From positions 2,033,501 through 2,097,500 of the forward strand of contig NZ_AP019791.1 in the NCBI RefSeq assembly GCF_007164525.1: 64,000 bases of DNA, read 5' to 3'. This document shows positions 33,113 through 39,661 of the stretch, piece by piece. Every line of letters begins with the position of its first letter. Positions within the stretch are counted from its first letter, which is position 1. The stretch comes from Rubrobacter xylanophilus (GTDB lineage: Bacteria > Actinomycetota > Rubrobacteria > Rubrobacterales > Rubrobacteraceae). The notes beneath the pieces are model-generated. The model did no database searches, was not told the origin of the DNA, and worked only from the letters and a program-made list of their open reading frames with translations. Made by a program: the position numbers and the translations under genes.

Positions 33113-34138
33113 CTATCGCTGCGATCCCTCCGACCGTGCCGTACGAGAGAGGGCGGGGATTATCTCCTCTCCGTAGGCGTCGAGGGTCTCCCCCATCGCG
33201 TCGTGCATGAGGTAGACGTTGAACTGGTCCACGCCGAGCTCCTCCAGCGTCCTCAGCTTGGCGATGTGGTCTTCGACGGTGCCCAGGACGCAGAAGCGGT
33301 CCACGATGTCGTCCGGGACGAACTCCGTTGTGGGGTTGTCGGCCTTGCCGTGGTGGGAGTAGTCGTAGCCCTCGCGGGCCTTTATGTAGTCGGTGAGGGC
33401 CGTGGGGATCTCGCTCCCCTCCCCGTAGCGAGCCACGAGGTCCGCCACGTGGTTGCCGACCATCCCCCCGAACCACCGGCACTGCTCGCGCTGGTGGGCG
33501 AGGTCGTCGCCGACGTAGGCGGGAGCGGCGACGCAGATCTTCACCTCCCTCGGGTCGCGCCCGGCCTCCCTTGCGGCGTCGTGCACGCGTTTTTTGGTCC
33601 ACTCCAGGATCACGGGGTCGGCGAGCTGCAGGATGAAGCCGTCGGCCTTCCTGCCGATGAGGGAGAGGGCCTTCGGGCCGTAGCCGGCCATCCACACCTC
33701 GAGCCGGCCGTCTTTCACCCACGGGATGCGCACCTTCGTCCCGTCGTAGTCCACCTCCCGGCCCTCGGCCAGCTCCCTGATCACGTGCATCGCCCGCTCC
33801 ACCTGACCCAGCGTGGCGGGCTTTCTGCCCAGGACGCGCTGGGCGGAGTCGCCGCGCCCGATGCCGCAGATGGTGCGGTTGCCGAACATCTCGTTCAGGG
33901 TGGCGAAGACCGAGGCCGTCACCGAGGGGTCGCGGGTCGCCGGGTTGGTCACGAAGGGGCCGACCATGATCCTCTCGGTCGCGGCGAGCATCTGGGAGTG
34001 GATGACGTAGGGCTCCTCCCACAGGATGTGCGAGTCGAAGGTCCAGGCGTGGGTGAAGCCGTGCTCCTCGGCGCGGCGGGTCAGCTCGATCACGCGCTTC
34101 GCCGGCGGGTCCGTCTGGAAGGTCACCCCGAACTCCAT
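33113..34138 (-). CDS. LLM class F420/flavin-dependent oxidoreductase of the pyrimidine operon
   Basis: A 341-residue luciferase-like TIM-barrel enzyme starting MEFGVTFQTDPPAKRVIEL, with the cofactor-region features ICGIGRGDSAQRVLGRKP and KVRIPWVKDGRLEVWMAGYGPKALSLIGRKADG. The start ATG shares one base with the NCS1 permease stop (TGATG), so it is the last gene of the dihydropyrimidinase operon. LLM enzymes use reduced FMN or F420. No dihydropyrimidine dehydrogenase is in the operon, so this protein could perform the missing redox step, but the reaction is not known from sequence. Confidence 0.88.
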   Translation of the reverse strand: MEFGVTFQTDPPAKRVIELTRRAEEHGFTHAWTFDSHILWEEPYVIHSQMLAATERIMVGPFVTNPATRDPSVTASVFATLNEMFGNRTICGIGRGDSAQRVLGRKPATLGQVERAMHVIRELAEGREVDYDGTKVRIPWVKDGRLEVWMAGYGPKALSLIGRKADGFILQLADPVILEWTKKRVHDAAREAGRDPREVKICVAAPAYVGDDLAHQREQCRWFGGMVGNHVADLVARYGEGSEIPTALTDYIKAREGYDYSHHGKADNPTTEFVPDDIVDRFCVLGTVEDHIAKLRTLEELGVDQFNVYLMHDAMGETLDAYGEEIIPALSRTARSEGSQR

Positions 34139-35667
34139 CACGTCGCCTCCGGCTCCTCGGCGACCTCGGGGGCCCGGGAGGGGATGAAGGAGAGAAGCAG
34201 GTAGGCCAGCCCGGCCACCGCGAAGGTAAAGAATAACCCGTAGTTGTAGAGGCTCTCGATGAACGTCGGGTTCTCGAAGACCCCGGCGAAGTTGGGAGTT
34301 GTGGCCGCCTTGAGGAAGCCCGGCAGGACCGGGACGACCCCGATGGCGACCGCCGCTATGGCCCGCCAGTTCCAGCCGCCGGAGTAGGCGTAGCGGCCGT
34401 CGGTCTTGTAGAGGTCCGGGAGGCTCAGGCGCCTGCGGCGCACGATCCAGTAGTCCACGATCATCACCGCGCCTATTGCCCCGAGCAGGCTCCCGTAGCC
34501 CACCAGCCAGGTGAAGATATAGGCGCCGGCGCTCTGGTAGAGGAGCCAGGGGAAGGAGATGATCCCGATGACCGCGGTGATGATCCCGCCGGTCCTGAAG
34601 GAGACGTACTTCGGGGCCAAATTGGAGAAGTCGAAGGAGGGCGAGACCACGTTGGCCGCCATGTTCGTCGAGATCTGGGCTATCACCACGACGATCATCG
34701 CGAGGATCAACAACGCAGGGATGTCCCCGGTGATGCGTCCGACCAGCGCGACCGGGTCCCAGATGGGCTCGCCGTAGACCACCACCGTGGCGGCGGTGAC
34801 CGCTATCCCGATGAAGCTGAAGGCGGTCATGGTGAGCGGAAGCCCGATCACCTGCCCCACCACCTGGGAGCGCTGGCTTTTGGCATAGCGGGTGAAGTCC
34901 GGGATGTTCAGAGACAGCGTGATCCAGTAGCCCACGTTGGCCGCGAGCGCCGACGGGAACAGCGCCCAGAAGGGAACCTGCCCGGCCTGCAGCTCGGCGG
35001 AGCGGGCGAAGACGTTGCCCACCCCTCCTCCGGCGACAAACCCCCATACGAGCAGCACCAGCCCCCCGGCCAGGAGCAGAGGGGCGGCGAGGGACTCCAG
35101 GATCTTGACCCCCTCGATGCCGCGCAAGATGATCGCCACCTGCACGGCCCAGAAGACGAAGAAGGTTATGAACTGGTGGTGGGCGACCTCTGCCCAGCCG
35201 GACCAGGCGGCGCTCATGAGCGCGTCGAGCGCGAGACCCCCGATCCAGGTCTGTATCCCGAACCATCCGCAGGCCACGAGCGCCCGGGCTATGGCGGCGA
35301 AGTTGGCCCCCCGCACCCCGAAGGAGGCCCGCACGAAGACCGGGAAGGGGATGCCGTAGCGGGTGCCGGCGTGGGCGTTGAGGAGCATGGGGATGAGCAC
35401 GATGACGTTGCCCAGAGAGATGGTCAGGAGCGCCTGCCACCAGTTCATCCCCGCGGCCATCAGCCCCGAGGCCAGGGTGTAGGTGGTGATGACGATGGAC
35501 ATCCCGATCCACAGCGCCGCGATGTTGTAGGTGCTCCAGGTGCGGTCCTCGGGCCCGGTGGGTGCGAGGTCGTTGTTGTACAGCGGCGAGACGCTGGCCT
35601 CGGCCTTTATGGCGGCGAGCCGCGCCGGGTCGTTTACCGCAAGATCCCTGTACTCGTCACGCTCCAA
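34138..35667 (-). CDS. NCS1 family nucleobase/hydantoin:cation symporter
   Basis: A 509-residue permease with 12 membrane segments, related to Mhp1 (hydantoin), PucI (allantoin) and uracil permeases. Recognisable parts are LAPTGPEDRTWSTYNIAALWIGMSI near residue 35-60, ASFGVRGANFAAIARALVACGWFGIQTWIGG (substrate Trp and Gln region) and PDFTRYAKSQ. The gap to the amidohydrolase gene is 37 nt. Flanking dihydropyrimidinase and carbamoylase genes suggest uracil, thymine, dihydropyrimidine or hydantoin as cargo. Confidence 0.93.
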   Translation of the reverse strand: MERDEYRDLAVNDPARLAAIKAEASVSPLYNNDLAPTGPEDRTWSTYNIAALWIGMSIVITTYTLASGLMAAGMNWWQALLTISLGNVIVLIPMLLNAHAGTRYGIPFPVFVRASFGVRGANFAAIARALVACGWFGIQTWIGGLALDALMSAAWSGWAEVAHHQFITFFVFWAVQVAIILRGIEGVKILESLAAPLLLAGGLVLLVWGFVAGGGVGNVFARSAELQAGQVPFWALFPSALAANVGYWITLSLNIPDFTRYAKSQRSQVVGQVIGLPLTMTAFSFIGIAVTAATVVVYGEPIWDPVALVGRITGDIPALLILAMIVVVIAQISTNMAANVVSPSFDFSNLAPKYVSFRTGGIITAVIGIISFPWLLYQSAGAYIFTWLVGYGSLLGAIGAVMIVDYWIVRRRRLSLPDLYKTDGRYAYSGGWNWRAIAAVAIGVVPVLPGFLKAATTPNFAGVFENPTFIESLYNYGLFFTFAVAGLAYLLLSFIPSRAPEVAEEPEAT

Positions 35668-38261: not shown

Positions 38262-39661
38262 GCCAGCACCCCCACGCTCGGCGGGACGAAGGCCCGCTCG
38301 ACGTACCGACCCGAGCCGTGCTCGGCCAGGATCTCACCGTCCCGGTAGGCCAGGCGACCCCGCACGTAGACCGCCGCCGGTCCCCCCCGGAAGGTCATCC
38401 CCTGGTAGGGGGTGTAGTCCACGTTGCCGTGGCGGTTCTCGACGGTCGCGGTGATCTCGAGGTCCGGGTCCCAGAGCACGATGTCGGCGTCGGCCCCCGG
38501 CGCGAGCGTCCCCTTGCGGGGGTACATGCCGTGGATTTTGGCCTGGTTGGTGGAGAGCACCGCCACGAAGGTCCTCTCGTCGATCTTGCCCTCCCTCACC
38601 CCGAGCGTCCAGAGGACCATCGCCCGCTCCTCGACCCCGGGGAGCCCGTTGGGGATCTTGGTGAAGTCGTCCCGGCCGAGCTCCTTCTGCCCCCGGTAGT
38701 TGAAGGAGCAGTGGTCGGAGCCGAAGATCTGCAGATCCCCTATCTGCAGCCCCCGCCACAGCGGCTCCCGGTTCCAGGAGTCGCGCAGCGGCGGCGAGCA
38801 GACGTACTTGGCCCCTTCAAAGCCCTCCCGGCACAAATCGTCGTAGGAGAAGGCGAGGTACTGCGGGCAGGTCTCGGCGTAGACGGTCTGGCCGAGCTCG
38901 TGGGCCCGGTGTATCTCCTCGAGCGCCGCCGCGCAGGAGACGTGGACGACGAGCAGGGGACACCCGGCCACCTCGGCGAGCTGGATGGCCCGGTTGGTGG
39001 CCTCGGCCTCGACCTCCTCGGGTCGCGTGAGGGCGTGGAAGCGCGGGGCGAAGTCTCCCCGCTCGAGCGCCTGCTGCTGCAGCTTGGCTATGACGTCCCC
39101 GTTCTCGGCGTGCACCATGACCAGGATGCCGGCCTCCCGGGCGATCTGCATGGCCTCGAAGAGATCCTCGTCGGCGGTGTAGAGAGGGGTTCCCTTGTAG
39201 GCCATGAAGATCTTGACCGAGGAGACCCCCCGGTCCTTGAGGCTGGGGATCTCGGCCTTTATCTCCCCGGTGAGGTTGGTTATGGCGACGTGGAACCCGT
39301 AGTCTATCAAGGCCTTGCCCTCGGCCTTGCGCCCCCACTCCTCGACCGCCCCACCCAGCGTACCCTCCACGTCCTGCAGCGCGAAGTCCACGATGGTGGT
39401 CGTCCCCCCGGCCAGAGCCGCCGCGGTGCCGCTGGCCCAGTCGTCGGCGGTCACCGTCCCCCCGAAGGGCATGTCCATGTGGGTGTGGCCGTCGATGAAG
39501 CCGGGCATCACGAGACGCCCCCGGGCATCGACCTCCTCGGCCCCCTCGGCCGGAAGGTCGACCCCCACGGAGACGACCTTCTCGTCCTCGACGAGGACGT
39601 CGGCCCGGTAGCTGCCCTCGGCCGTAACCACGGTGCCACCGGTAAACAGCAACCTTCCCAT
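38258..39661 (-). CDS. hydA: Dihydropyrimidinase (D-hydantoinase)
   Basis: A 467-residue amidohydrolase that opens the ring of dihydrouracil, dihydrothymine or hydantoins. The binuclear metal site is complete: His59 and His61 in DGHTHMDMPFGG, carbamylated Lys150 in SSVKIFMAYKG, His184 in MVHAENGD, His240 in VVHVSC and Asp316 in FGSDHCSF. It is first in a five-gene operon (hydA, aminotransferase, carbamoylase, NCS1 permease, LLM enzyme). A good promoter lies about 200 nt upstream, leaving a long leader. Confidence 0.95.
   Translation of the reverse strand: MGRLLFTGGTVVTAEGSYRADVLVEDEKVVSVGVDLPAEGAEEVDARGRLVMPGFIDGHTHMDMPFGGTVTADDWASGTAAALAGGTTTIVDFALQDVEGTLGGAVEEWGRKAEGKALIDYGFHVAITNLTGEIKAEIPSLKDRGVSSVKIFMAYKGTPLYTADEDLFEAMQIAREAGILVMVHAENGDVIAKLQQQALERGDFAPRFHALTRPEEVEAEATNRAIQLAEVAGCPLLVVHVSCAAALEEIHRAHELGQTVYAETCPQYLAFSYDDLCREGFEGAKYVCSPPLRDSWNREPLWRGLQIGDLQIFGSDHCSFNYRGQKELGRDDFTKIPNGLPGVEERAMVLWTLGVREGKIDERTFVAVLSTNQAKIHGMYPRKGTLAPGADADIVLWDPDLEITATVENRHGNVDYTPYQGMTFRGGPAAVYVRGRLAYRDGEILAEHGSGRYVERAFVPPSVGVLA

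Follow-up and report, generated by a model that had tools for sequence, protein, structure and literature searches.

The operon examined here raises the question of how uracil and thymine catabolism is started in Rubrobacter xylanophilus. It lies on the minus strand (39661-33113) of the analysed window, a stretch of 64,000 nucleotides (nt) from the one closed contig of 3.02 Mb that makes up the genome. Its five genes encode a dihydropyrimidinase, a class-III aminotransferase, an M20 N-carbamoyl hydrolase, an NCS1 permease, and a luciferase-like monooxygenase (LLM) protein, in this order, and a dihydropyrimidine dehydrogenase (DPD) is missing. The LLM protein, a member of the TIGR03842 family, is very probably an F420H2-dependent uracil/thymine reductase that stands in this Pyd-pathway operon as a nonhomologous replacement for DPD. 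The reaction and the pathway are already known, and it is the enzyme class and the cofactor that would be new. The genes of the operon are:

38258-39661, minus strand: dihydropyrimidinase (PydB/HydA), first operon gene; TIGR02033 592 bits (cut-off 393); nearest solved structures D-hydantoinase/dihydropyrimidinase
36951-38261, minus strand: class-III aminotransferase; PF00202 336 bits; nearest solved structures γ-aminobutyrate aminotransferases and amino-acid racemases of the same fold
35705-36949, minus strand: M20-family N-carbamoyl amidohydrolase (hydantoinase/carbamoylase family); TIGR01879 290 bits (cut-off 204)
34138-35667, minus strand: NCS1-family nucleobase:cation symporter; TIGR00800 381 bits (cut-off 353); nearest solved structure Mhp1
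33113-34138, minus strand: LLM oxidoreductase of the TIGR03842 family; 602 bits (cut-off 295)

In gene order, the spacing consists of a 4-nt overlap, a 1-nt gap, and a 37-nt gap, after which the start codon (ATG) of the LLM gene overlaps the stop codon (TGA) of the permease gene. Because all genes overlap or sit 1-37 bp apart, the LLM gene is a member of the operon. Profile scores and tight spacing confirm the gene set and the extent (33113-39661) given by an earlier model-made, sequence-only reading of the window. All family calls lie above curated cut-offs except that of the aminotransferase, which is clear at the Pfam level only. The earlier label “beta-alanine-type” is thus upheld as far as class III, as NCBIfam does not distinguish beta-alanine specificity; judged from its operon context, the enzyme is probably a beta-alanine/beta-aminoisobutyrate transaminase (PydD-like). 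The M20 amidase, whose solved relatives include N-carbamoyl-L-amino acid hydrolase, beta-alanine synthase, and N-carbamoyl-beta-alanine amidohydrolase, probably takes the PydC role as beta-ureidopropionase. The operon accordingly combines a PydB dihydropyrimidinase with a PydC-type carbamoyl hydrolase, and PydA (DPD) is absent from it and from the whole genome.

The lack of DPD had been noted for the operon, and it holds genome-wide. The PreA model NF006183, which recovers its E. coli control, finds no PreA/DPD in the closed genome, and a preTA/DPD pair elsewhere in the genome, the finding on which the sequence-only reading had said it would fall, was looked for and is not there. The single strong DHO_dh-family protein is PyrD, which adjoins PyrK and matches dihydroorotate dehydrogenase. 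A hidden DPD was rejected, as searches with the DHO_dh family and the PreA model gave PyrD only. RutA is not found in the genome either (best match 52 bits, from a protein other than the window LLM protein, against the TIGR03612 cut-off of 498 bits). With PreA and RutA absent and PyrD as the lone strong DHO_dh protein, the genome lacks the entry enzymes of both the reductive and the Rut pathway.

A second locus with a dihydropyrimidinase and an M20 amidase occurs in the same genome (L122, G000:C1:1861000-1880000, about 7274-10672), with no LLM or DPD nearby. Its neighbours, named by eye from sequence, are a COG0523-like GTPase and polysaccharide-deacetylase-like, asparaginase-like, and isochorismatase-like hydrolase genes. 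The locus probably serves a different cyclic-ureide pathway.

The window LLM protein matches TIGR03842 over its full length (residues 2-330 on profile positions 1-329 of 329, 602 bits), an NCBIfam “hypothetical equivalog” family that carries no assigned function. At the Pfam level it matches only PF00296, and the marks of a DPD (the PreA model NF006183, or DHO_dh FMN and ferredoxin domains) are lacking; the protein may act like a DPD without being one. By sequence, the solved structures closest to it are those of F420-dependent Mer proteins, which align at full length with about 27% identity. The AlphaFold2 model (pLDDT 89) points the same way, with the top eight fold matches in the PDB all being Mer and the first 12 all F420 enzymes. 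Flavin mononucleotide (FMN) monooxygenases rank later, so that the nearest structures to the predicted fold are F420 enzymes. The protein is not itself a Mer (126 bits against the TIGR03555 cut-off of 348.7), and a segment at about residues 221-263 is conserved within the TIGR03842 family and not common to Mer; N229, H230, R255, D259, Y260, and H263 are among the residues conserved in the family.

The distribution of the family was surveyed across 246 evenly sampled Actinomycetota genomes, scored at curated cut-offs. TIGR03842 is found in 52 of them, and a dihydropyrimidinase accompanies it in 51 of these 52 compared to 23 of the 194 others (Fisher p = 1.8e-33). The two genes lie at most 8 kb apart in 41 of the 52, and most of the remaining pairs are on separate contigs of fragmented assemblies. 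PreA occurs in two of the 246 genomes, both without TIGR03842. FbiC/CofH exceeds its cut-off in 43 of the 52 TIGR03842 genomes and in 75 of the 194 others (p = 1.5e-8). Of the nine TIGR03842 genomes without such a CofH match, seven have the F420 ligase CofE and two are fragmented drafts; the idea of TIGR03842 occurring without F420, which would suggest FMN, was rejected on these grounds. FbiC or CofE is hence present in nearly all genomes that carry the family.

A similar picture is given by the gene neighbourhoods, for which the best 80 of 572 stretches encoding relatives in the genome collection were compared. Among the 60 loci with enough upstream sequence, a dihydropyrimidinase is present in 54, a carbamoyl hydrolase in 56, an aminotransferase in 44, and a nucleobase permease in 38, and PreA/PreT in none. 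The immediate 5′ neighbour of the TIGR03842 gene is the dihydropyrimidinase in 40 loci and methylmalonate-semialdehyde dehydrogenase in seven. The recurrent neighbours (dihydropyrimidinase, carbamoyl hydrolase, aminotransferase, methylmalonate-semialdehyde dehydrogenase, and NCS1 or Xan_ur permeases) form full pyrimidine-type surroundings in Rubrobacteraceae, Streptomyces, Saccharopolyspora, Pseudonocardia, Amycolatopsis, Acidimicrobiia, and others. The carbamoyl hydrolase is of the M20 type in Rubrobacteraceae and of a nitrilase type related to beta-ureidopropionase in most other actinobacteria; in Saccharopolyspora, a Xan_ur_permease gene directly follows the TIGR03842 gene. A chance arrangement is excluded, as the same type of gene order recurs across Actinomycetota. 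The sole sampled actinobacterium with both PreA and a dihydropyrimidinase has one operon of PreT-PreA-amidase-dihydropyrimidinase without an LLM gene, which is a DPD in place of the LLM protein.

The link to coenzyme F420 is drawn from several genomes. R. xylanophilus can make F420, as its FbiC scores 539 bits against a cut-off of 374. NpdG was rejected as its F420 reductase, since neither protein nor model searches find it in the genome. One further LLM protein in the window, in a separate unit, bears on this point:

41003-42013, minus strand: second LLM protein, TIGR03557 (F420-dependent glucose-6-phosphate-dehydrogenase-like subfamily); 327 bits (cut-off 210)

This FGD-like gene lies upstream of an EamA permease gene, and its position upstream of the operon recurs at several further loci from Rubrobacteraceae; its product is a possible source of F420H2 in a genome lacking NpdG. 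The strongest evidence for the F420 connection is the linkage on plasmids of two Leisingera species. There, a cofG-cofH-cofD-cofC-cofE-npdG-TIGR03842 run is divergent from genes for transhydrogenase alpha/beta, an aminotransferase, a Zn hydrolase, a dihydropyrimidinase, and an NCS1 permease. By this layout, cofactor synthesis, NADPH:F420 reductase, the TIGR03842 enzyme, and the downstream pathway form one island. In Paracoccus alcaliphilus, a cofGHDCE-npdG-TIGR03842 run adjoins an ABC transporter. A Variovorax sp. PBL-E5 plasmid (NZ_LR594673.1, L091) encodes a distant relative, with 34% identity and a score under the TIGR03842 cut-off, in an operon that also carries F420 biosynthesis genes, npdG, and genes for a nitrilase-type hydrolase and RidA, adjoined by an amidohydrolase and an FAD oxidoreductase; this locus possibly represents another F420-dependent heterocycle pathway.

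In the proposed mechanism, the NCS1 permease would import uracil or thymine. Subsequently, the LLM protein would move a hydride from F420H2 to the C5-C6 double bond, yielding dihydrouracil or dihydrothymine. The hydride most likely goes to C6 with protonation at C5, an assignment that is based on DPD-type chemistry. The dihydropyrimidinase would then open the dihydropyrimidine ring, the M20 amidase would release beta-alanine or beta-aminoisobutyrate together with ammonia and CO2, and the aminotransferase would form (methyl)malonate semialdehyde. In Alphaproteobacteria, NpdG would re-reduce F420 with NADPH, a task that probably falls to the FGD-like LLM dehydrogenase in Rubrobacter. The gene content in Leisingera suggests an electron path from NADH to NADPH (transhydrogenase), to F420H2 (NpdG), and finally to uracil. 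F420 carries hydrides obligately, has a low potential, and shows little reactivity towards oxygen; therefore, a reduction fits and a RutA-like oxygenation does not.

Compared to DPD (PydA, PreT-PreA), the LLM protein would catalyze the same reaction at the same point of the pathway, and PreT-PreA fills the equivalent operon in the actinobacterium described above. The LLM protein is nevertheless unrelated to DPD, being a single-domain TIM barrel without a PyrD-like FMN domain, an FAD domain, or iron–sulfur clusters, and its proposed donor is F420H2 instead of NAD(P)H or ferredoxin. These two donors are used by the known PydA variants, including the ferredoxin-dependent PydAc (PMC7332683). Mer (TIGR03555) is the closest solved relative in both sequence and fold and also performs an F420-dependent hydride transfer, but the LLM protein falls far under the Mer cut-off, has Glu6 replaced, and carries a conserved segment of its own. 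RutA (TIGR03612) is likewise an LLM-superfamily enzyme acting on uracil; it opens the ring with FMN and O2 in another pathway, whereas the operon here needs dihydrouracil. Two further systems can be compared by description. In Chloroflexota uric-acid clusters, a putative F420-dependent yanthine reductase of the PF00296 LLM family is predicted to replace a PydA-like reductase (PMC12507026). This is the same kind of replacement in a parallel purine pathway, with another substrate and a function that is also predicted. SSGG-03002/NpsU from the mureidomycin/napsamycin clusters is a putative F420/FMN oxidoreductase that reduces C5-C6 of the uracil moiety in vivo, although in-vitro activity was not obtained by the authors (PMC10714638). 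It offers a precedent for the reduction itself, and its role is in antibiotic biosynthesis.

Other functions of the LLM protein can be weighed against this background. As an F420-dependent enzyme it might serve the last stage of the pathway, either reducing (methyl)malonate semialdehyde or acting as an alcohol dehydrogenase, with uracil being reduced by an unrecognised enzyme or not at all. A semialdehyde is indeed the expected end product, and the F420-dependent LLM fold relatives Adf (an alcohol dehydrogenase) and FGD act on alcohol/carbonyl groups. Such a role is very unlikely: many operons hold methylmalonate-semialdehyde dehydrogenase and the LLM gene, often adjacent, so that this end is already served, and step 1 would be without an enzyme in any of the surveyed TIGR03842 genomes. 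Moreover, the nearest relatives are Mer, a reductase, and not Adf or FGD, and the LLM gene is absent where the operon has PreT-PreA. There is little probability, too, that the operon is meant for hydantoins or a different cyclic ureide which the LLM protein reduces or oxidises in place of uracil and thymine. Hydantoin enzymes do occur in the families of the amidase and the NCS1 permease, dihydropyrimidinases are promiscuous, and other amidohydrolases accompany the distant Variovorax relative in its F420 operon. Most actinobacterial carbamoyl hydrolases, however, are of the nitrilase type related to beta-ureidopropionase and N-carbamoylputrescine amidase, the aminotransferase and methylmalonate-semialdehyde dehydrogenase suit uracil and thymine, and the Saccharopolyspora operon adds its Xan_ur_permease; hydantoins could be served by the second dihydropyrimidinase-amidase locus, which has no LLM gene.

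The sequence-only reading had offered F420H2- or FMN-dependent reduction and RutA-like oxygenation side by side as new ways into the pathway. An FMN-dependent, O2-using uracil oxygenase is suggested by RutA itself, an LLM-superfamily uracil enzyme, and by the LLM proteins of the R. xylanophilus genome all being PF00296 members. It is extremely unlikely. The similarity to E. coli RutA amounts to 22% identity over 187 residues (about half the length of the LLM protein, E = 0.002), and the protein is not among the matches of the RutA model; with these two comparisons RutA membership is rejected and the mechanism disfavoured. The ureidoacrylate product would need RutB-type enzymes and bypass the operon's dihydropyrimidinase, and in Leisingera and Paracoccus the gene shares an operon with those for F420 synthesis and the F420 reductase. 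Of the earlier options, F420H2-dependent reduction is thus retained, carried by co-occurrence, the absence of DPD, the cof linkage, and the Mer-like sequence and fold, and FMN is disfavoured along with the oxygenation.

Several points weigh against F420H2-dependent uracil reduction. Kinship among the genomes (about 20 of the 52 with TIGR03842 are Rubrobacteraceae) inflates the significance of the survey, although the pattern spans many families, and the rarity of PreA makes mutual exclusion alone statistically light. Dihydropyrimidinase is found with neither TIGR03842 nor PreA in 22 of the 246 genomes, so that its presence alone does not imply uracil use; these genomes may use different ureide pathways or a further kind of entry enzyme. 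Glu6 of Mer aligns with T/V/C in the TIGR03842 family (one PDB match, 8qq8, is the Mer E6Q mutant), and the chemistry is therefore not directly transferable from Mer. No F420 genes adjoin the operon in R. xylanophilus, whose genome has no NpdG. The Leisingera evidence, also as regards DPD, is confined to plasmids. Finally, substrate, reaction direction, and cofactor use are deduced from context and sequence.

With F420H2-dependent uracil reduction as the favoured reading, it is likely that a hitherto unrecognised class of F420H2-dependent dihydropyrimidine reductases starts uracil/thymine catabolism in much of Actinomycetota and has been carried on plasmids with F420 genes into Alphaproteobacteria, where pyrimidine catabolism would be a main reason for F420 and would account for the F420 genes of some marine bacteria. 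This class is proposed to supply the absent entry reaction of pyrimidine breakdown in many actinobacteria, Streptomyces among them, and would give a function to the widespread TIGR03842 family. The open-access literature yielded no description of a catabolic uracil reductase that depends on F420, subscription papers and preprints lying outside that search. The role of F420 in Proteobacteria was an open question in a 2021 review of the cofactor (PMC8498797), and the Leisingera cof operon, which ends in a TIGR03842 gene and faces a pyrimidine operon, bears on why Proteobacteria make F420. If the reading is true, F420 would have a simple physiological role outside methanogens and mycobacteria, and the enzyme would be a single-subunit soluble uracil reductase, predicted to be possibly active on fluoropyrimidines too.

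Some further observations concern the surroundings of the LLM gene. In some lineages, NMT1/THI5-like ABC transporters stand beside it and replace the NCS1/uracil permeases (L099:9879-13807, L035:1117-4822), possibly for pyrimidine uptake. Disrupted copies are seen in a Rubrobacter metagenome-assembled genome (in-frame stop, L003:129-1133) and in the complete genome G206 (apparent frameshift, L100:8489-9501), and these may reflect either gene decay or errors in assembly. Immediately downstream of the LLM gene in the window (28409-33044, minus strand), an ECF transporter (fused EcfAA′, EcfT, and a QueT/riboflavin-type S component) is followed by an adenosylhomocysteinase-like gene, and this block is kept in other Rubrobacteraceae (L007:2868-7476, L114:12020-16641).

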